A DNA stretch of 46,628 nucleotides from Oscillospiraceae bacterium. GTDB lineage: Bacteria; Bacillota; Clostridia; Oscillospirales; Ruminococcaceae. The stretch is from the NCBI GenBank assembly GCA_022508925.1, contig JAFLUF010000008.1, positions 1 through 46,628 on the forward strand, read 5' to 3'. A program made the position numbers and the translations under genes. The notes below the pieces were generated by a model. The model did no database searches. It saw only the letters and a list, made by a program, of their open reading frames with translations, and was not told the DNA's origin. Shown one piece after another: positions 29,833-40,847 of the stretch (position 1 is the first letter of the stretch; every line of letters starts with the position of its first letter).

Positions 29833-30972
29833 TCAGTACACCTCGGCATCATACGCGTATCGGCCTTCTGATAGCTCGGTTATTACCGGAGTAGCACGCA
29901 TTGAAGGTCTTATATCCACCTCAGGCACATCCGGAGTGCTGTATATCTGATAGTATCTCTGGCACTTCATAAGCTCTGTGGCCGGTTCAGGCGGAGAATA
30001 CGGGGTCGCAGTGTTTCCTAACTCAAGCTTTATCCATTCGATCTCCACATTTTCAACAAATGTAGTCAGGACGATCCAACTACCGCATTCATTGATATAA
30101 CGTGAAGCGCGAATCTCAGAATCAAGATACATAATAAAAGAACTATTATCTTTTTCAAATACAAAACTCGATGAACGGACTACTCCATTTACTTTCATTG
30201 ATATAGTCATTAACTGATTGTCAAAACTCTCGCTTTTGTTAATCAGCTGACGAATCACAGCTTCACTGTCCAACTTAATTTTACCGTCATCAACCGTCAC
30301 AGTTCCGGCACGGTTTTTGAACCAATGATCCACCGTGTAGGTACGTCCGGTATACTCGGTCTGACCACGCTGATTTATACTGAAATCAGAATTTATAAGC
30401 AAATTTTCTCCCGATACCGCGGTTACCGCAGATGACGCATTTGCGCTGTTCTCCAATATCTTTTCACTCTTTGATATCTCGTAAAAATCATTTTCCGTTT
30501 TGCGGAAAATACGATCCGTATCAACTACACCGTATATTTCTTCATTATCAACAACATTCAGATAAACCTCATAATCTCCCTTTGGGATCATATACGTTGA
30601 AAACTGCGCGTATGCCGCTCTTTTGATTGATCCGTATTGTTGGGCCTCATTGTAGCAAATATATCCTATATCGTCATCGATATCATAGTTTTTAAAAACA
30701 ATGTTTATTTTTCTTCCCTCTGAGAGCTTTACATCGCAGTAAGCGTTTGCCTGAACATACACCTCTTCCTTTATGCCGCCTAAATATGACAGCCATAAAC
30801 CGTCAAACGTAGGCTCAACTGTTTCCTGCAGATCGCTGAACTTTATCTGTGATATTGGTGATTCTTCGTTTCCGAAAACCAAAACAAGATCATTGGCAGC
30901 GAACAGATATATTATCACCAGAAGCATACAAACGCAGTAAATGATTATCTTAGGAGTCAATATTTTTTTCAT
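29833..30972 (-). CDS. Membrane-anchored protein with phage-tail-type C-terminal domain
   Basis: The protein of about 379 residues starts at the ATG at 30972 (GAGGTG seven bases upstream). A single N-terminal helix IIIYCVCMLLVIIYLFA acts as signal anchor, so the rest is extracytoplasmic. From about residue 195 comes the domain NLLINSDFSINQRGQ...YTVDHWFKN, known from phage tail fibre and neck-appendage proteins, ending in CQRYYQIYST and RPSMRATP. The same domain occurs at 39804-40847 with strong similarity. The middle region has no recognised motif. It is the last gene of the phosphonate operon, so it may bind or organise the phosphonate-bearing glycan; that is inference. Confidence 0.8.
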   Translation of the reverse strand: MKKILTPKIIIYCVCMLLVIIYLFAANDLVLVFGNEESPISQIKFSDLQETVEPTFDGLWLSYLGGIKEEVYVQANAYCDVKLSEGRKINIVFKNYDIDDDIGYICYNEAQQYGSIKRAAYAQFSTYMIPKGDYEVYLNVVDNEEIYGVVDTDRIFRKTENDFYEISKSEKILENSANASSAVTAVSGENLLINSDFSINQRGQTEYTGRTYTVDHWFKNRAGTVTVDDGKIKLDSEAVIRQLINKSESFDNQLMTISMKVNGVVRSSSFVFEKDNSSFIMYLDSEIRASRYINECGSWIVLTTFVENVEIEWIKLELGNTATPYSPPEPATELMKCQRYYQIYSTPDVPEVDIRPSMRATPVITELSEGRYAYDAEVY

Positions 30973-30973
30973 A

Positions 30974-32407
30974 TCACGGCACCTCAACTATCGGAAGATC
31001 TTCACCAAACTGTTTCTGAAGAATAACTCTGAGTGAATTTACACCGGAAAGACCCTCTGTCTCAGAAACAGGCTCGCCTTTGTAATAAATACATTGCAAG
31101 ATATGAGTTATTTCTTCCGCGGGTATCTCCGGATTGCTGCGCGCACCGTGATCCGAGGTTATAAAAATTATGCTGTTGGGGTCATTGGCAATAATTGTTT
31201 CAACGATCGTTTTGACCCTGCCCAGAGTGTATCTGTAATAATTGAGATAATATTTCGGATCTTCCCAATTGGAAAAATTAGAAGTTGAGTTAAGATTTCC
31301 GCTTTCATCCAGATAAAACGGCTGATGCGGAGAATTTATATGGGCATAGGTAAATCTTGAGCTTACATCAAAGCTGCATGTATCAAAATAATCCAACCCA
31401 TTAAGGATGCCTTTGAGCTGTGCTATGGGTTCAGCAGCATAAAGCGGATAGAGGAATGTATTATCCATAAGCATCTGGGTAAAGGTTTCGCCTGATATAG
31501 TCGTTGCAACGTTTGAGCTATCCGCAGTTACGGACGGAACCCCGGCGGACCCTGATGCGCCTACTCCTACAACCTCATATCCGTTTCTTGTAAGCAGCTG
31601 GACCAGCGGGGGGTTTGCGACTGCGGCATTTATCTCACTGCTGGACATACTGAGGTCAACGACATAATCAAGATTGAATATATTCGCCATAACGACATAA
31701 GTGCCATCAGAATCATTATATGAATTATCTGAGATCGTAAAGTTATTGTCGGTCAGAAATTTTCTTAAATCCGCGGCGTCATAACCGTAATAGTCCCTAA
31801 GAGTCGGAAACGAGGCTCCTTCGTCAAGCACAAAATAATAGATATTTGCCCCGTCATTTTCATAGTCACCCGAAATTATACCGGTATCTCCACTCTCATC
31901 CGGTATGTCTGATGATGAGATCATATTAGGAACAGCAGTAATAATGTTTAAAAGCACCAGTGCGGCAAAAATCAGACCGGTAATGCAGGATACGATTTTT
32001 GCAATATCGTCCTTCAGGAGTCTGTATAAAAGATAATCGATATGCAGGACGATAACCAGCAAAATTACTATTATATGCCAGTATCTGAGAACCGGAAACA
32101 CATATCTTATAACATTTTCTGCCATATGATAGTTTTCAAGAAGAAGTATGACCAGCGAGCTGTTTATAGCCGCCTTAAAAAAAGACTTTGTAAAAAACAG
32201 CATTACCCAATATACCGCGAGACCTATTCCTATAAATACCCCCAGAGGCATAAGAATCTCCCCGAATCCTACCTCGAGCGAATTAGCCGAAACCATAAAG
32301 ACGGGCATATATGCCGCGACAAATACGACTGTCAGCAATGACATGGCGCATTGTACGCTTCTTTTGTCCAAAAACTTACTTTCGCTATTATTAACTTCCT
32401 CAGCCAT
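30974..32407 (-). CDS. LTA-synthase-like membrane enzyme of the sulfatase/alkaline phosphatase superfamily
   Basis: From the ATG at 32407 (GGAGG six bases upstream) the protein has 477 residues. About five membrane helices (to residue 160) are followed by an extracytoplasmic sulfatase-fold domain with the metal-site VLDEGAS (about 193-199), a likely Thr nucleophile in SDGTYVV (Thr236), SPHQPF and TSDHGARS. This architecture is shared by lipoteichoic acid synthases and phosphoethanolamine transferases, which move a phospho-group between lipid and acceptor outside the cell. Its place in an aminoethylphosphonate operon suggests a phosphono- or phospho-group transferase or hydrolase. The next gene starts one base before its stop region. 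Confidence 0.8.
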   Translation of the reverse strand: MAEEVNNSESKFLDKRSVQCAMSLLTVVFVAAYMPVFMVSANSLEVGFGEILMPLGVFIGIGLAVYWVMLFFTKSFFKAAINSSLVILLLENYHMAENVIRYVFPVLRYWHIIVILLVIVLHIDYLLYRLLKDDIAKIVSCITGLIFAALVLLNIITAVPNMISSSDIPDESGDTGIISGDYENDGANIYYFVLDEGASFPTLRDYYGYDAADLRKFLTDNNFTISDNSYNDSDGTYVVMANIFNLDYVVDLSMSSSEINAAVANPPLVQLLTRNGYEVVGVGASGSAGVPSVTADSSNVATTISGETFTQMLMDNTFLYPLYAAEPIAQLKGILNGLDYFDTCSFDVSSRFTYAHINSPHQPFYLDESGNLNSTSNFSNWEDPKYYLNYYRYTLGRVKTIVETIIANDPNSIIFITSDHGARSNPEIPAEEITHILQCIYYKGEPVSETEGLSGVNSLRVILQKQFGEDLPIVEVP

Positions 32408-32479
32408 AATAACCTCCGTTTTAATAATCATTATGAAGTTGCGTTGGTGCAAGCTGAAAATAATAAATTATTACATTAG

Positions 32480-33604
32480 TTATTTCAATTCGTTGAGATA
32501 ACCCATGAAGTTCTGCTTGTTTTCCAGAGCAGTTGTAGTCGGCCTTCCGAGATCACTTCTCGCTCCGATAGAACTTCTGACTTCAATTAGACTAAGCGAA
32601 TCTCTGTCCCTTGCACTTATCAGTTCTCTGTCAAGATCGCTGAAATTGTCCACACAAACAGCATATGGATATCCGCACGCTTTTGCCACTCCTACAACAT
32701 CAATTGAGTTTGCCACTGTCGGCATTCCTCCCACAGTCTCATGAGAACCGTTGTTTATAACTATATGGACCATATTTTTCGGAGCGTTTGCGCCTATCAC
32801 CGCAAGAGCTCCCATGTGCATCAAGGCTGCTCCGTCACCGTCAAGACACCAGATCTTCGTTTCAGGCTTATTGATCGCAACGCCAAGCGATATTGACGAG
32901 CAATGTCCCATAGACCCGACAGTCAGAAAATCATATTTATGGCTCTGACCTTTGGCTTCGCGTATCTCAAATAATTCTCGGCTCGCCTTGCCGGTAGTGG
33001 AGATTATAGGATCCTCACCTGTTACCTCAACGATATGGCGTATGATCTCCTCGCGTGACATAGTGTTTTCGTTGGCATAATCGATCTTACCGTCATAGCT
33101 CAACGCGTCCTTGGCAATTACAAACGCGACATTCTTCCCTTTGCCGAGAAGCTCTCTGAATTGCTCCATTGCATGAGCCGCCTCGTTGTCTGACGTAGAC
33201 TTGCGTATAACAAACGCCGATATATCCATATCTTCAAGAAGCTTAAGCGTGACCTCTCCCTGGTAAATATGCTGAGGCTCATCGTGTATACCGGGCTCGC
33301 CTCTCCATCCGATGATAAACACCATCGGAATTGCGTATACCTTATCGTTAAGCAGAGACGCAACGGGATTAATAATATTTCCCTCTCCGCTGTTCTGCAT
33401 ATACACCACCGGAATTTTACCTGTAGACAGATTGTATCCCGCGGCAATTGCCGTACAGTTACCCTCGTTTGCCGCTATGATGTGATGATTGCTGTCTATC
33501 CCATAGGTGTTCATAAGGTAATTGCACAATGACTTCAGCTGTGAATCAGGAACCCCGGTATAAAAATCAGCACCGATTATCTCAACGAGTTTTTCAACCT
33601 TCAT
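32480..33604 (-). CDS. ppd: Phosphonopyruvate decarboxylase
   Basis: The 374-residue TPP enzyme has the short form typical of phosphonopyruvate decarboxylases: FYTGVPDSQLKSLCNY at the N-terminus, AANEGNCTAIAAGY, HIYQGEVTLKLLE, and the TPP motif GDGAALMHMG with a downstream NNGSHETVGG. It irreversibly converts phosphonopyruvate to phosphonoacetaldehyde, pulling the unfavourable PepM reaction forward. GGAGGT precedes the ATG. It lies between the cytidylyltransferase and the sulfatase-like genes in the phosphonate operon. Confidence 0.95.
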   Translation of the reverse strand: MKVEKLVEIIGADFYTGVPDSQLKSLCNYLMNTYGIDSNHHIIAANEGNCTAIAAGYNLSTGKIPVVYMQNSGEGNIINPVASLLNDKVYAIPMVFIIGWRGEPGIHDEPQHIYQGEVTLKLLEDMDISAFVIRKSTSDNEAAHAMEQFRELLGKGKNVAFVIAKDALSYDGKIDYANENTMSREEIIRHIVEVTGEDPIISTTGKASRELFEIREAKGQSHKYDFLTVGSMGHCSSISLGVAINKPETKIWCLDGDGAALMHMGALAVIGANAPKNMVHIVINNGSHETVGGMPTVANSIDVVGVAKACGYPYAVCVDNFSDLDRELISARDRDSLSLIEVRSSIGARSDLGRPTTTALENKQNFMGYLNELK

Positions 33605-33663: not shown

Positions 33664-34368
33664 CTATCGCGCTTCGGCGATCCTTCGCTCAACAGCTTTC
33701 AGCTCGTCCACAGTATCTATTTCTATGATCTGCTCTGCTAAAACAGGGTGTATAGTTAATGGAAGCTTATCTATATGCATATTCACAATGTCGTCCCAAA
33801 ACAACTCACTCCGGCCGGGAAGACTGTATTCCGTTTCAATAAGATCGGCAAGCATATCAGCCTCTTTAGCCCTGAAGAATGATATACCTACCATATTATA
33901 GCAGTCTGTACCCTTCTTGCCTACTCTTGTTATCAGACCGCCATCGTCAAGGTCAAAAACCCAATCGTCAGAATAACCTTTTACCATTTTGCCGAAATAG
34001 CATGAGTCCATTGTTCCGCAGCAAAAGATATCCTGATCAGCTACATAAAGATCCGCCTCGCATATAAAGCAGTCCCCGAGTCTGAGTATGTCCCTTGCGG
34101 CATATACCGATGAAATATTATTTGCCGAAGCGTATACCTTGTTTTCAATGAGCGACACCCGCGGATATTTGTCAGTAAGGTATTCAAACTGCTCTTTAAG
34201 ATATCCGACTACGATATATATGTGTTCAACGCCGCGCTTTGTCAGAGCATTGATAACTGTTTCAACCATAGGCGTTGAGCCGACTTTTATCAGCGGTTTG
34301 GGAACCGATTCTGTAAGAGGCCGCATTCTTGTGCCCAGTCCAGAAGCCATAATAATAGCGTTTTCCAT
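33664..34368 (-). CDS. pntC: CTP:phosphonate/phosphocholine cytidylyltransferase (PntC/LicC-like)
   Basis: The 234-residue nucleotidyltransferase begins AIIMASGLGTRMRPLT and PKPLIKVGSTPMVE, with NNISSVYAA and EADLYV as seen in LicC and PntC. LicC activates phosphocholine with CTP; PntC activates 2-aminoethylphosphonate to CMP-AEP. Because the flanking genes are the AEP pathway and no choline kinase or uptake gene is seen, AEP is the more likely substrate. Its product would feed the LicD enzyme at 17967 or the glycerophosphotransferase-like domain at 37133. The symbol is functional inference. GGAGG precedes the ATG. Confidence 0.85.
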   Translation of the reverse strand: MENAIIMASGLGTRMRPLTESVPKPLIKVGSTPMVETVINALTKRGVEHIYIVVGYLKEQFEYLTDKYPRVSLIENKVYASANNISSVYAARDILRLGDCFICEADLYVADQDIFCCGTMDSCYFGKMVKGYSDDWVFDLDDGGLITRVGKKGTDCYNMVGISFFRAKEADMLADLIETEYSLPGRSELFWDDIVNMHIDKLPLTIHPVLAEQIIEIDTVDELKAVERRIAEAR

Positions 34369-34411: not shown

Positions 34412-35707
34412 TTACAACGTATCGATAAGCGAAATGATCTCTTTTATGGACATGAGCCTGCTGTCCACTTCCTGTGCTCTGTGATATTTCAGAATATCCT
34501 TGGCTGTTTGCTCCATCGCGGGGAATGCGCTTCTTATAAGCTGATTTGCGTATATAACTATATTTACTCCCGCAGCAGCAAGTTCGTCCTCGGTAATCGA
34601 ATTAAAAGACGTCGGCACGACAACGACCGGAGTAGTTGTGTTTTTTTCTCTGAAGCGGCGGCAGAATTCAAGTATTTCATCAGGAGACTTTCTGCGGCTG
34701 TGGATCATTATACCGTCAGCACCGGCATCTACAAACGCAAAAGCCCTTTCAAGAGCGTCTTCCATGCCTTTTTCTAAGATCAGGCTTTCTATACGCGCGA
34801 TTATCATAAAATCGTCTGTAAGCTGCACCTTTTTGCCGGCCTTTATTTTCTCACAGAAATGCTCGATAGTATCCTGCGTTTGCTCAACTTCAGTCCCAAA
34901 GAGAGAATTCTTCTTAAGTCCGATCTTATCCTCAATGATGATCGCTGAAACGCCCATTCTTTCCAGCGTTCTCACGTTATATACAAAATGTTCGATCTGC
35001 CCTCCGGTATCACCGTCAAATATTATAGGCTTGGTAGTTACCTCCATGACATCGTCTATCGTGCGTGATCTTGACGTCATATCCACAAGCTCAATATCCG
35101 GCTTGCCTTTATCTGTTGAATCGCATAACGAGCTTATCCACATCGCGTCAAACTGATTAAGCTCTCCGTTATGCGCAACAACAGTCTTTTCAGCGATAAG
35201 ACCCGTAAGACCGCTATGAACTTCTGTTGCCTTTACTATGGGGCACAACTGTATAAGCTGTCTTAACCTTTTTCTTCTGAATTCGGGCATGGCCAGCCTT
35301 TCCTTAATCCGGTCATCTACCCTTTTAACATTTTCACTGTATGTGTACGGAACTTCTATAATTTTTCCGCCGTATTCCGAAAGAAGCTGCTCAACATTAT
35401 CCCTTATCGAACGCATGGGCTCTTCTATCCAGTTATCCCCGTGAATAACAAAGTCGGGACGTATGCTGTTTATAATGTTATCGTACATTATTTCATTCTG
35501 AGTAACGACCCTGCTTACACCGTCTATATTTTTTATCATCTCGACGCGTTCCTCAAATGTAACGGTAGGAAAGCGATTGAATTTTATCATAGCGCGGTCG
35601 CTAAGTACGCCTATTATCAATTCTCCGTATTTTTTAGCTTCTTTTACGATATTCAGATGTCCCTCATGGATCACATCGGTGCAAAAACAAGTATAAACAA
35701 CTGCCAA
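34412..35707 (-). CDS. pepM: PEP phosphomutase with N-terminal nucleotidyltransferase domain
   Basis: The 431-residue protein has two domains. Residues 1-130 form a cytidylyltransferase-like domain with VIHEGHLNIV (an HxGH motif) and VIHGDNW. Residues about 150-431 are PEP mutase, with IFDGDTGG (229-236) and the diagnostic EDKIGLKKNS (259-268). PepM rearranges phosphoenolpyruvate to phosphonopyruvate, forming the C-P bond that starts nearly all phosphonate biosynthesis. The start is a TTG at 35707 supported by GGAGGT. The fused N-terminal domain is a recurrent architecture; it may activate a product or bind nucleotides. It is central to the operon. Confidence 0.95.
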   Translation of the reverse strand: MAVVYTCFCTDVIHEGHLNIVKEAKKYGELIIGVLSDRAMIKFNRFPTVTFEERVEMIKNIDGVSRVVTQNEIMYDNIINSIRPDFVIHGDNWIEEPMRSIRDNVEQLLSEYGGKIIEVPYTYSENVKRVDDRIKERLAMPEFRRKRLRQLIQLCPIVKATEVHSGLTGLIAEKTVVAHNGELNQFDAMWISSLCDSTDKGKPDIELVDMTSRSRTIDDVMEVTTKPIIFDGDTGGQIEHFVYNVRTLERMGVSAIIIEDKIGLKKNSLFGTEVEQTQDTIEHFCEKIKAGKKVQLTDDFMIIARIESLILEKGMEDALERAFAFVDAGADGIMIHSRRKSPDEILEFCRRFREKNTTTPVVVVPTSFNSITEDELAAAGVNIVIYANQLIRSAFPAMEQTAKDILKYHRAQEVDSRLMSIKEIISLIDTL

Positions 35708-35722
35708 GATCTTACCTCCGCA

Positions 35723-36868
35723 TTAATTATCATATTTGACCGGAACAGCAACATTATTGTATTCCAACGCTTCTCTTAGCACGACAAAGAAATCCTCGAT
35801 ATCCTTCTCATCGATTGCCCCCAGCGCACATAGCCTGAACGTGTTGGTAGACGATATTTTTCCCGGATAAATGGTAAATCCGCGAGCATAGCAATAATCA
35901 TGGATTTTTGAGAAATCCCAGTTTTTATCGTCCGGGTATATGACCGAAACCACAAGACCGGCCTGATACTCCCTTTTGATAAGATCCCTGAAGCCAAGCT
36001 TATCAAGCCCCGCATGGATCGCTTCAAATACCCTTGTATGTCTGTTCCACTTTTCTGACTCTCCCTCGGCAAAATACTCCTTAAGAGCCTGCACGGTCGC
36101 ATAAATTGTCTGAACAGGCGGCGTGAAATGCATCTCGCCCGTCTCCTCAAAGAAATTATACTGAAGAAAGAGATTGCAATAATATGAACGCTTGGGATAA
36201 TTTTTTGAAGCCTCTATTATTTTTTTATTGCCTATTATGAATGATAATCCTGTCATCGCCATCAGACCCTTTTGAGCAGAAGCCATACAGAAATCAATGT
36301 TGTCCTGCGCGATGTCAATGGGACGCATCGCAAGAGTAGATGTAGTATCAACCGTAAACACAGCATTATATTTATGCACTATCCCGCCGATTTCACGAAC
36401 AGGGTTAAGAAGACCCGTACCCGTTTCATTATGAGTTGTATGAACAAGCGCGATATCCGGGTTATCCTGAAGCGTTTTTTCAATAACAGCCAAATCCGGC
36501 TGAGAATCAACCGGAAATTTCAGATCAATATAAGGCAGCCCGTAATATTGGCATACTTCAACGGCTCGTGTGCTGTACGCACCGTTGTTGATTATCAGCA
36601 CCTTCTTATTTTCGGGAAGAAGCGAGTTTATGCATACATCAATATTTATCGTACCGGAACCGCAGAACAAAACAGATGTGTATATCTCGGGATCTGCATG
36701 CACTACCTTCAGCAAATCAGACCTGAGTTCTCTCATCATCTCGGCAAACTCTTTTTCGCGCGGACAGATATCCGGAACGACCTGAGCCATTTTTACCGTG
36801 TCGGTTGTTGTTGACGGCCCGGGATTAAGCAGTATATTTCTTTTTATAGAAATACTTTCACTTGTCAT
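35723..36868 (-). CDS. phnW: 2-aminoethylphosphonate:pyruvate aminotransferase (PhnW family)
   Basis: The 381-residue class V PLP enzyme has NPGPSTTTDTVK, CGSGTINIDVCINSLL, THNETGTG and the cofactor lysine in ASAQKGLMAMTGLSF. It interconverts phosphonoacetaldehyde and 2-aminoethylphosphonate. With ppd and pepM beside it, the reaction runs toward AEP synthesis here rather than degradation; no phosphonatase gene (phnX) is seen. Its ATG overlaps the stop of the small membrane protein gene by four bases. Confidence 0.93.
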   Translation of the reverse strand: MTSESISIKRNILLNPGPSTTTDTVKMAQVVPDICPREKEFAEMMRELRSDLLKVVHADPEIYTSVLFCGSGTINIDVCINSLLPENKKVLIINNGAYSTRAVEVCQYYGLPYIDLKFPVDSQPDLAVIEKTLQDNPDIALVHTTHNETGTGLLNPVREIGGIVHKYNAVFTVDTTSTLAMRPIDIAQDNIDFCMASAQKGLMAMTGLSFIIGNKKIIEASKNYPKRSYYCNLFLQYNFFEETGEMHFTPPVQTIYATVQALKEYFAEGESEKWNRHTRVFEAIHAGLDKLGFRDLIKREYQAGLVVSVIYPDDKNWDFSKIHDYCYARGFTIYPGKISSTNTFRLCALGAIDEKDIEDFFVVLREALEYNNVAVPVKYDN

Positions 36869-37149
36869 TGCTTGTCCTCCGTATCATCGATGTTTACTGT
36901 TATTTCATCGGACTCAACTTCTTTGTTTTTGTTTTCATCTATGCCCAGCTTATTATTGAGTTTCTTTTTAGCACGGCGAATTCCGATCCCGACAGCAGCT
37001 GCCACAGCGATACCGACGCCGGCTATAGCCTGAATAAGATACGTCATAACCGACGGATCAAGATACGCGCTTGCGTTTGCGCCGAACATAAGCATCGATA
37101 ATGTACTTACAACAAACAAGACTCCTAAAACTTCAGCTATTTTTCTCAT
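36865..37149 (-). CDS. Small membrane protein with AYLDPS motif
   Basis: The 94-residue protein has a signal-peptide-like N-terminus (LGVLFVVSTLSMLMFGANASA), the motif AYLDPSVMTYLIQ, one strong membrane helix (about 40-58), then a basic stretch and an acidic tail (EVESDEITVNIDDTEDKQ). Similar small proteins with a YLDPGTGS-like motif sit beside surface-glycan genes in other Firmicutes as far as I recall; their role is not known to me. Its ATG lies inside the end of the YidC-fusion gene (17-base overlap), and its stop overlaps the PhnW start, so the three are translationally coupled. Confidence 0.8.
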   Translation of the reverse strand: MRKIAEVLGVLFVVSTLSMLMFGANASAYLDPSVMTYLIQAIAGVGIAVAAAVGIGIRRAKKKLNNKLGIDENKNKEVESDEITVNIDDTEDKQ

Positions 37150-39049
37150 GATTCGTTTTTCCTTTCATAGATACCTTTTCTTGGATCGCATTGATGATAT
37201 ACTTAGCACCCGCAGCCGATGAATGATCCAGATTATAGAGATATTTGTGCGCAAGAGCGTCTATCTTTTCTCTGTATTCATCCTGCTTTGCCAAAAGCTC
37301 TCCGACAACCGTATTGACCTTATCAAGGTCATTGACATCAAGATTTCTGCCTATCTCATTCCTGAGAAGAATATTTATCGGTACAACGCTGATCTCCTTG
37401 TAATCGGGATTCATAACCTTCATAGGGGTGTTAATAAACAGTACAGGCCTGAGTGTTGAAAAAGAATACTCCCAACTTATATCGGACCAGTCCGTTATAA
37501 GCAGGTCTGCCTCAAGAACAGGATTGTTTGAAGTGAAATCAGTCTGTACCTCTATCCCGGAAGAGGCATACTTCATCCGTATAGCCTCCATATATTCCTT
37601 TTTCAGCCTGACCTCCTGCGGGTGAGGGCGGACTATTATCTCATAATCCGTCTTTTTCAGCTCGTCCAGAAGCTGTTCAAGACAACCGTCAATTATATTG
37701 TCTTTCTGCCACGATGGAGCGATCAATATCTTTTTCTTCTCATTTACTGTATGCGGCAGTGATTCATATTTTTTACGCATATCATCGATAAGAGGATAAC
37801 CGATCTCAGCCAACGTGCGTTCAGGAAGGTCGCGCGCAGCGGCAAATTCTACCTCCTCTTCTTTCTGGTGTATGCCGGCACAGAATATCGTATCAAAATG
37901 ATCTGTGGCGCATTTTCTGAACGTCAGATTATTGCTGCCCATGCCATGCTGAACGAATATATACTCCACATCGTTTCTCACATAACTGCGCTTTATATGG
38001 AAATTCCCAAGATCAGGCATGGTCATGACAACAACATCGGCGTCCATCTTCATCATCAGGGTGATAAGCTTGTTTTCGCCGATATAATATGCTCTTATGT
38101 GCTGATTTTCCGCGGCCTTTTCAAATATTGAATCGTTCGGATCACTGGTAATATAATGGATTGTAATGTTAGTATTCTTGAGAATATATTCGATGAAGCC
38201 CTTGAAATATTTGTAAAAACCGTTGCTTTCAGAGTAGAATACAAGATGTTTGTTTACCACAGAAAAGAATCTTTTATAGTCCTCTCTTTCACGTTTTTTG
38301 TTCGCGGAAAAAAAGCCTTCCTTTTTATCCTTGCCTACATTCTGAACCTCACTGAGTGCTTTTCTGCTTTCTTCCAACCGATTGTAATCAATATATTTGG
38401 ACGGTTTGATGATAAAGTTCAAAATATACATCTGTATTATCGCGAGTATGTTGCTGCAGACCCAGTAAAACGCAACGCCAATGGAAACAAACCACCCCAG
38501 ATAAAGAGAAAGAGCCACAGAGAAAGCCATTGTTCCATATTTGTTCAGTTTTGACTGTTCTGCCTGAAGAACATTGCTGGCATTCTGAGTTACACACAGC
38601 AGAAAAGATGACAGACCGGCTACAATGGGAGACCAGATAAGACCAAAGCCCTCTTCACTCGGCACAAGTCCAAGATTTGTAAACAGGAATCCCATATCAA
38701 TGCTTGAGTCTGCTATCCCGGCCTTTATTACTTCAATAACACCTGCCAAAAGCAAAAGTTGGATGATAGTAGGTATAGTAGTCGCTAAAGGATGGTATTT
38801 ATTCTTTTTAAACAAAACGGATTGTTCGTCAGCTATCATATCCGACTGACCGTAAAACTTTGCTTTGATAAAGTTGATGTCTGGCTGCATCCTGATCATC
38901 TTTATCGAGTTAAAATGTGTCCATACGGAAACGGGGATCAATATTATCTTGCTTATTACAGTAAACACAATGATCGCGTATCCATAATTGCCGCACAGCT
39001 CATAGCACCAGGCCATTACCCATTTTAACGGGGCAATCAGAACATCCAT
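37133..39049 (-). CDS. YidC/Oxa1-type membrane domain fused to a CDP-glycerol glycerophosphotransferase domain
   Basis: The 638-residue protein starts at the ATG at 39049, nine bases after AAGGAG; an adjacent upstream TTG is less likely. Residues 1-215 match the YidC/Oxa1 core: NYGYAIIVFTVISKIILIPV, KMIRMQPDI, then four further helices. The conserved YidC groove arginine is replaced by Lys34. A charged linker (220-260) leads to a TagB/TagF-type domain with FVQHGMG (365-371), RPHP (474-477) and TDWSDISWEYSF (519-530). Glyphos_transf enzymes transfer glycerol- or ribitol-phosphate from CDP donors to wall polymers. As first gene of the AEP operon it may use CMP-AEP or CDP-glycerol (inference). 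The YidC part may be an anchor or a lipid or peptide handling module. Confidence 0.9.
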   Translation of the reverse strand: MDVLIAPLKWVMAWCYELCGNYGYAIIVFTVISKIILIPVSVWTHFNSIKMIRMQPDINFIKAKFYGQSDMIADEQSVLFKKNKYHPLATTIPTIIQLLLLAGVIEVIKAGIADSSIDMGFLFTNLGLVPSEEGFGLIWSPIVAGLSSFLLCVTQNASNVLQAEQSKLNKYGTMAFSVALSLYLGWFVSIGVAFYWVCSNILAIIQMYILNFIIKPSKYIDYNRLEESRKALSEVQNVGKDKKEGFFSANKKREREDYKRFFSVVNKHLVFYSESNGFYKYFKGFIEYILKNTNITIHYITSDPNDSIFEKAAENQHIRAYYIGENKLITLMMKMDADVVVMTMPDLGNFHIKRSYVRNDVEYIFVQHGMGSNNLTFRKCATDHFDTIFCAGIHQKEEEVEFAAARDLPERTLAEIGYPLIDDMRKKYESLPHTVNEKKKILIAPSWQKDNIIDGCLEQLLDELKKTDYEIIVRPHPQEVRLKKEYMEAIRMKYASSGIEVQTDFTSNNPVLEADLLITDWSDISWEYSFSTLRPVLFINTPMKVMNPDYKEISVVPINILLRNEIGRNLDVNDLDKVNTVVGELLAKQDEYREKIDALAHKYLYNLDHSSAAGAKYIINAIQEKVSMKGKTNHEKNS

Positions 39050-39803: not shown

Positions 39804-40847
39804 TCACGAGTAAATTTCAGCGTCATAACTATAAGAGCTTCCATTTGCTTTTGAGGTAGGTGTGATCCTCATAGACGGGCGCAGATCAACATCAGGAACA
39901 TTGCCTGTGCTCCTTAACTGGTAGTATTTTTGACACTTTAGCAACTCCGTTGCGGGGTCAGGATGAATAAACGGTGTTGCCTTATCGCCAAATTCGAGCT
40001 TCACCCATTCTATCTCAATGGTTTCCCCGGCTACCACGGGCGAAAAAACTATCCATGGGATATAGAGTGCATCCGTATATCGGGTTATGCGGAAAACAGT
40101 ATCATTGTAAAAAGTAAATCCAGTCTGAGAAGGTTCCGGATATGTGAAAGTCCCGGTCTTGACCTCTCCGTTTACAAGTGCTGAGAGAGTCATTACGTGT
40201 CCCGCAAAATCGTTTTCGTTTTCAATAGGCTGACGAATCAAAGCGCTTTCACCGCTGAGTATAATTTTATCCCCCTCAACCGTTATGGTTCCGGCGCTGT
40301 TTTTATACCAACGGTCAGCGGTATAGCAGGGACCCGTATATGCGCTTTGTCCTCTCTGATTTATCCTGAAATCGGGATTTATCAGCAGGTTGGGGTTGAT
40401 GATTTGGGATTGAAAAGCGTAAATCTTATTTTGGATAAAGGCGTGAGCGCTCTCGTCATTGTTGTGAGCAGCATCTTTGTTATCCGCGTATGTTCTGCCC
40501 GATTCGAGCGTCGCACTGTCTCCATTGTCAACATACGCCTTTGATAATACTTTACTGTCTCCGCCGGAATTGCCCCCGACGGCGGGCTTAAAAAAATTTC
40601 TTATGTCATCTGTACCTATCAGAACTATCGGTCCGGTACCAAGAATATAGACCGTACCCTTGCAGTCAGGCAATACGGCGCTCTCCTCCGCCATGATCGG
40701 CAATACTCCTTCTTCAGCGTCGGGATTTATGTCAGGTTTCGCAGACGCGTATACCGCTTCCGGGCTGTTGTTCTTTATACATACATGGTTTCCACCTGTA
40801 AATATTTTGATTTCTTTTCCTGTCAATGTTTTCCTTCTAATGGCCAT
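39804..40847 (-). CDS. Phage-tail-type protein with carbohydrate-binding-like domain
   Basis: The 347-residue protein has an N-terminal region without signal peptide, a Gly-rich linker (about 92-96), a helical stretch (KAYVDNGDSATLESGRTYAD), then from about residue 152 the domain NLLINPDFRINQRGQ...YTADRWYKN found in phage tail fibre proteins, ending CQKYYQLRST and RPSMRITP. The domain is strongly similar to the C-terminal part of the protein at 29833-30972. AAGGAGG precedes the ATG, with a hairpin just upstream (40868-40887). With the 82-residue gene after it, it forms an isolated two-gene unit. Without structural phage genes nearby it is not part of a complete prophage. Confidence 0.8.
   Translation of the reverse strand: MAIRRKTLTGKEIKIFTGGNHVCIKNNSPEAVYASAKPDINPDAEEGVLPIMAEESAVLPDCKGTVYILGTGPIVLIGTDDIRNFFKPAVGGNSGGDSKVLSKAYVDNGDSATLESGRTYADNKDAAHNNDESAHAFIQNKIYAFQSQIINPNLLINPDFRINQRGQSAYTGPCYTADRWYKNSAGTITVEGDKIILSGESALIRQPIENENDFAGHVMTLSALVNGEVKTGTFTYPEPSQTGFTFYNDTVFRITRYTDALYIPWIVFSPVVAGETIEIEWVKLEFGDKATPFIHPDPATELLKCQKYYQLRSTGNVPDVDLRPSMRITPTSKANGSSYSYDAEIYS

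Follow-up and report, generated by a model that had tools for sequence, protein, structure and literature searches.

The wall teichoic acid polymerases TagF/TarL (3l7k, 8va1) and the YidC/SpoIIIJ/Oxa1 insertases (3wo7, 6al2) are the closest described systems to the two domains of the fusion protein analysed here. With TagF/TarL it has in common the GT-B fold, the PF04464 family and the invariant His/RPHP/DWS motifs, but it differs from these polymerases in the YidC core placed in front, in a low PF04464 score and in an operon that supplies aminoethylphosphonate (AEP) instead of glycerol phosphate. With the insertases it shares the five-helix core, the C1 hairpin, a positive groove residue, Q97 and W196, whereas it belongs to a clade separate from the standalone YidCs tested and its C-terminus is occupied by the transferase. 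A partner enzyme retains residues D210, T251, D434 and H435 of the LtaS-type AP-superfamily phosphotransferases (2w5q, 4uop), but it occurs next to YidC and a nucleotide-using transferase, or joined to them in a single chain. In LicABCD/PntC tailoring (PMC6697681) a small head group is also nucleotide-activated, and the cassettes described below resemble LicC/PntC, choline kinase and PepM; however, the transferase of the fusion is TagF-like and joined to YidC, not LicD-like. The pathway steps after C-P bond formation are called enigmatic in PMC6697681, and YidC, CDP-glycerol and TagF do not occur in its main text. No description of a YidC-transferase fusion was found in the full-text literature, a search that covered papers outside subscription, and the fusion may well be named already in sequence databases.

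In the window (the whole stretch of DNA analysed, 46,628 nucleotides of an Oscillospiraceae bacterium), the fusion gene heads a tight AEP operon in which the later genes follow on the same strand, overlapping or separated by short gaps. The features concerned are the following:

37133..39049, minus strand: YidC-TagF fusion protein, 638 amino acids (open frame; PF02096 and PF04464; AlphaFold model)
38411..39049, minus strand: YidC/Oxa1 five-helix core of the fusion, residues 1-213, with Lys34
37166..38257, minus strand: TagF-like GT-B transferase domain of the fusion, residues 265-628 (PF04464 over 265-539)
36865..37149, minus strand: YLDP protein, 94 amino acids (ORF; 2 predicted membrane helices flanking the AYLDPSVMTYLIQ motif, by hydropathy)
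35723..36868, minus strand: PhnW/AepZ, 2-aminoethylphosphonate aminotransferase (TIGR03301, 457.5 bits, cut-off 360.8)
34412..35707, minus strand: cytidylyltransferase-like domain fused to PEP mutase, PepM (TIGR02320, 416.3 bits, cut-off 319.55; PF01467)
33664..34368, minus strand: LicC/PntC-type nucleotidyltransferase (PF00483 and PF12804 over cut-off)
32480..33604, minus strand: phosphonopyruvate decarboxylase, Ppd (TIGR03297, 451.3 bits, cut-off 312.5)
30974..32452, minus strand: LtaS-like AP-superfamily ('Sulfatase') membrane enzyme (PF00884, 30.4 bits, cut-off 25)
29833..30987, minus strand: membrane-anchored protein with a phage tail-fibre-like C-terminal half (phrog_4492, E 4.2e-18, residues 185-372)

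A sequence-only reading of this DNA had placed a YidC core and then a TagF-type transferase in a single 638-residue frame, and this has been confirmed by the open frame, the Pfam matches and the model. The structure prediction proposed in that reading recovered both the five-helix YidC core and the TagF-type GT-B domain (pLDDT 88.3), and the whole C1 helical hairpin, predicted to be cytoplasmic, is retained in the modelled YidC core (residues 38-82). The fusion scored 93.7 bits against PF02096 (cut-off 35), fell narrowly under the cut-off of the NCBIfam YidC domain model TIGR03592 (81.2 versus 84.3) and reached 48.3 bits against PF04464 (cut-off 22.1). This last score is low; the best TagF-like protein of the family sample reaches 227 bits. 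TagF was the best Foldseek match of the transferase domain (E 1.8e-12) and also came first among the VIA matches, and no TagF chain was retrieved by the sequence profile of this domain. Residues H368, R474-P-H476-P and D520-W-S522 are invariant in the fusion TagF domains; the two catalytic histidines of TagF itself are 444 and 548, those mutated in 3l7k and 3l7m. Since the PF04464 match is weak, and the transferase domain of the fusion in one family genome (G077) was not detected by PF04464 at E 0.001, the donor may differ from that of TagF. By homology to YidC, the TagF domain would be cytoplasmic.

The position of the fusion at the head of an AEP operon was borne out, with PhnW, PepM and Ppd all over curated cut-offs. 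The LicC/PntC-type nucleotidyltransferase is predicted to produce CMP-AEP, a specificity suggested by the enzymes of PMC6697681, and the cargo handled by this operon is likely to be AEP. None of the operon proteins scanned exceeded the cut-off of TIGR01518 (glycerol-3-phosphate cytidylyltransferase), against which the cytidylyltransferase domain fused to PepM scored 26 bits (cut-off 165). The YLDP gene is the next after the fusion; neither this gene nor the AP-superfamily enzyme of the same operon was considered in the sequence-only reading, nor were the triple fusions found elsewhere, which are invisible from the window. The protein encoded at 29833..30987 has one predicted membrane helix by hydropathy, and N-terminal parts related to its own adjoin the AP-superfamily gene in L036 and L037, but its membership of the machine is uncertain. 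Its phage tail-fibre-like domain, phrog_4492, is shared by the product of 39804-40847 (minus strand), so that both flanks of the operon carry it. The window genome contains a single PF04464 match, the fusion, and 2 PF00884 matches in 2.18 Mb, 1 of them in the fusion operon; the assembly is 89.85% complete and absences are therefore soft.

The PF02096/PF04464 fusion and PepM were searched by profile in a sample of 148 genomes of the family. The fusion was found in 10 of them, its match being split into two pieces of one frame in 3, and PepM was over its cut-off in 16, namely 7 of the 10 fusion genomes versus 9 of the 138 others (Fisher p 4.3e-6). PepM lies a few kb from the fusion in G000, G026, G123 and G140, and on another contig or far from it in G071, G077 and G097; no PepM match was found in the fusion genomes G111, G129 and G136. 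The fusion of G111 is the closest relative of the window fusion in the family sample (65% identical). In 7 of the 10 fusion genomes the fusion is the sole PF04464 match, G026 and G071 having more, while the single PF04464 match of G077 is a different gene. A scan of GTDB contigs gave at least 569 relatives among 597 stretches, and the same fusion recurred, at full length in 76 of the best 80 loci examined from these at least 569, with the remaining 4 cut by contig ends. Recurrence across genomes rules out an assembly artefact as the origin of the fusion, and a YidC core joined to a TagF-type transferase in one chain is confirmed as real.

Most carriers among the scan loci are MAGs of Lachnospiraceae, Oscillospiraceae and Erysipelotrichaceae type, and the record titles of many of them point to animal guts. 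Fusion loci were also seen in MAGs labelled Candidatus Saccharibacteria (L095, L097, L100, L102, L104, L105, L106). Nearly full-length fusions occur in the phage-filed records MT838376.1, MT836777.1 and MT836947.1 (97, 97 and 96% query coverage), short unannotated faecal records that reflect either phage carriage or misfiled bacterial DNA.

A census of gene neighbourhoods was made of 90 loci (the window, 9 family genomes and the best 80 of the at least 569 scan loci), which are partly dependent, as L057/L061 are 98% identical and the pairs L081/L088 and L084/L089 each come from the same MAGs. The AP-superfamily enzyme was found near the fusion in 67 loci, YLDP in 72 and either of them in 81, with neither seen in 9. 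In the 50 well-flanked loci (5 kb or more on each side) these figures were 39, 40 and 46, respectively, and the AP-superfamily enzyme was not detected in 11. Its family conserves D210, T251, H371, H376, D434 and H435, all kept in the window protein; D210 is present in 81, T251 in 73, D434 in 82 and H435 in 82 of 83 aligned enzymes. LtaS was the best solved match of the family profile (E 4.7e-8, over a 65-residue stretch), and by hydropathy analysis the window protein has 4 predicted membrane helices, while 52 of 70 relatives have 4 or 5. The N-terminus of YidC lies outside the membrane. The AP-superfamily enzyme probably faces outwards, because of its likeness to LtaS and of the triple fusion, in which it is joined to the YidC N-terminus.

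At least one of these partners is present in all 14 fusion-bearing PepM loci (the AP-superfamily enzyme in 10, YLDP in 13). By profile search, neither was found in the 9 PepM loci of fusion-free family genomes, a control that includes 2 short contigs (8.7 and 9.6 kb) and from which distant versions could escape, the SULF and YLDP profiles having been trained on fusion-side genes. By this distribution (14/14 with the fusion, 0/9 without it), the two partners go with the fusion, not with the phosphonate pathway. Some fusion-free PepM loci carry other possible AEP consumers by eye, such as a LicD-like gene in L135.

The partners also occur joined to the fusion. The AP-superfamily enzyme, YidC and TagF form one chain of about 1200 amino acids in 5 of the best 80 scan loci (L057, L060, L061, L075, L096), and Pfam named all three domains in the two examples L057 and L075; given the 98% identity of L057 and L061, the independent lineages with a triple fusion number about three. 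In 7 of the 90 census loci, YLDP itself is joined to the AP-superfamily enzyme. Other joined forms are YidC-Sulfatase fusions of about 922 amino acids (L044:7343-10111, L045:4877-7648, L046:2893-5670), each beside a TagF-like gene, although the Sulfatase match in L046 is under cut-off (18 bits). In these distant cousins, which come from G059, G001 and G039, the TagF-like gene precedes the YidC-Sulfatase fusion. Their TagF-like proteins start with YIDPGTGS in L044 and L045, and the third gene is cut. Joined protein parts usually work together, so the AP-superfamily enzyme, YidC, TagF and YLDP, which are fused in these several ways, probably form one machine.

The supply genes near the fusion vary. 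PepM is present in 14 of the 90 census loci and a CobD-like protein in 25, with a LicC-like domain fused to it in 20 and separate in 5; choline-kinase-like (4), TagD-like (9) and IspD-like (3) cassettes were also found, and none was detected in 34 loci, many of them on short contigs. PepM and CobD-like cassettes overlap in none of the 90 loci (chance 0.007, or 0.002 within the 50 well-flanked loci, both uncorrected for kinship), and thus these two supply cassettes are interchangeable. The LicC/PntC-like nucleotidyltransferase fused to a CobD-like PLP domain was observed as L050:12678-14501 and as similar ORFs of about 600 amino acids. The L050 protein matches CobD-like 6oux and 1lc5, PntC 6pd1 and LicC 1jyk, and scores 186 bits against the CobD equivalog, under its cut-off of 290.55. 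From these matches, it would decarboxylate phosphoserine to phosphoethanolamine and then form CDP-ethanolamine, a possible one-protein route; no paper on CDP-ethanolamine from a CobD-type phosphoserine decarboxylase was found in the full-text literature. The near-isosterism of phosphoethanolamine and AEP would account for the swapping of the two cassettes. Near the fusion in L073, L107, L048 and L040, nucleotidyltransferase ORFs end in a part that resembles choline/ethanolamine kinase (by Pfam in L073 and L107), hinting at phosphocholine as a further head group.

The sequence-only reading had raised a dedicated phosphonate- or glycerophosphate-transferase, with co-occurrence with pepM as a check. 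PepM is enriched in fusion genomes, but just 14 of the 90 fusions have it nearby, which rules out a strictly phosphonate enzyme. The dedicated phosphonate role was not upheld, given these 14 loci, the CobD-like protein found instead in 25 and the genome G111, in which no PepM match was found. That proposal was also to be doubted if most fusion loci lacked phosphonate or teichoic genes; this is the situation for phosphonate alone, whereas a nucleotidyltransferase-type supply cassette is present in 42 of the 50 well-flanked loci (none detected in 8). Across the fusion family, several activated head groups seem to be used, and its more regular companions are the LtaS-like AP-superfamily enzyme and YLDP.

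A phylogenetic tree of 52 YidC domains (31 fusions, 18 standalone proteins and 3 YidC-Sulfatase cousins) placed the fusion YidCs on one side of a branch with support 99/100, and the YidC of the fusion is therefore a monophyletic paralog; the cousins sit on a very long branch. Residues K34, Q97, S181, W196 and N200 do not vary among the 31 fusions, and Lys34 was seen in 62 of 62 in a larger set. At position 34, 13 of the 18 standalone YidCs have Lys and 5 have Arg, so Lys34 as a peculiarity of the fusion, suspected at first from the sequence, was dropped. The groove signature is under strong constraint, with Lys34 itself ordinary. The groove Lys/Arg is replaced by Asn in 3 of 3 YidC-Sulfatase cousins, which indicates that the groove charge is dispensable in that variant. 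Each of the 10 fusion genomes of the family carries another PF02096 match besides the fusion (only partial in G071). This rules out the fusion as the sole YidC of its genome, and the fusion need not be the general insertase. The window genome has one other YidC, in what we take to be an rnpA-yidD-yidC-jag-like gene order.

We consider it reasonably probable that the fusion is a head-group transferase bound to the membrane, which acts together with the AP-superfamily enzyme in envelope decoration. PepM, Ppd, PhnW and the cytidylyltransferases of the operon would make AEP and activate it as CMP-AEP, and the cytoplasmic TagF-like domain would move the head group from the nucleotide to an inner-leaflet lipid or lipid-linked acceptor. 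The YidC core would keep the transferase at the membrane while its polar groove takes up the lipid product, which the outward AP-superfamily (LtaS-like) enzyme, aided by YLDP, would use at the cell surface. CMP-AEP is the presumed donor, and the acceptor, the step order and the role of the groove are likewise putative. Purified E. coli YidC, Oxa1 and Get1 are reported to scramble lipids in liposomes (PMC10491306), and the Oxa1-family proteins tested there to do so in simulations as well; the idea is repeated for YidC in PMC7618853. These in vitro reports make lipid translocation by the YidC core of the fusion plausible, and a lipid-moving role of this core, taken alone, is possible but falls short of being probable. 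The complete scheme, in which YidC is a recruited lipid translocator, TagF builds an AEP-, phosphoethanolamine- or phosphocholine-lipid and the AP-superfamily enzyme uses it outside (make-flip-use), is offered tentatively and is rather doubtful as a whole. The suggestion that a YidC-derived module anchors the transferase stands in so far as YidC is fixed to a TagF-type enzyme in a surface-decoration setting with a phosphonate link above chance, but nothing was found that points to presentation of a nascent surface peptide.

The YidC part might instead be a mere anchor or docking platform for the TagF-like domain and the AP-superfamily enzyme, with the product exported by a separate flippase or ABC exporter. 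The loss of the groove charge in the YidC-Sulfatase cousins fits this, as do the TagF-like proteins unjoined to YidC in L044-L046, since another anchor, such as the YIDPGTGS start in L044 and L045, can serve; however, the five invariant groove-signature residues of the 31 fusions would be unexpected in a mere anchor and the entire C1 hairpin is retained, so that this explanation is somewhat unlikely. It is unlikely, too, that the YidC part serves as an insertase or chaperone dedicated to the AP-superfamily enzyme and YLDP, acting in cis for complex assembly. Insertion of small and polytopic membrane proteins is the established job of YidC, and YLDP is small, with 2 predicted helices and its gene directly after the fusion, but the fusion has no free C-terminal tail, as the TagF domain follows helix 5, every fusion genome checked has another YidC match, and in the triple fusion the AP-superfamily enzyme is upstream of YidC, where self-insertion by the C-terminal part would be awkward.

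An ordinary teichoic acid glycerophosphotransferase with a YidC anchor, using CDP-glycerol and unrelated to AEP, would agree with the naming of PF04464 for CDP-glycerol transferases, with TagF/TarL as the nearest solved relatives of that function and with the TagD-like cytidylyltransferase in 9 of the 90 loci, that of L105 passing TIGR01518. This explanation is very improbable when set against the window operon, which is without a glycerol-3-phosphate cytidylyltransferase, the enrichment of PepM in fusion genomes and the swapping of PepM and CobD-like cassettes. The preferred reading remains the membrane-bound head-group transferase.

These results suggest that the YidC-transferase and the AP-superfamily enzyme are a machine that adds small charged groups, AEP for example, to the cell surface. 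The conserved fusion module names concrete candidates for the transfer and export steps that would take nucleotide-activated head groups, AEP among them, from the cytoplasm to the surface. If the make-flip-use scheme is true, the machine would be a single polypeptide in some species, and it would represent a physiological, substrate-dedicated use of the in vitro scrambling reported for E. coli YidC and Oxa1 proteins (PMC10491306). With another YidC in all 10 checked, the fusion genomes offer a natural context for studying possible lipid movement by an Oxa1-type groove in vivo. Surface zwitterions of the gut carriers could matter for their contacts with host and phage.
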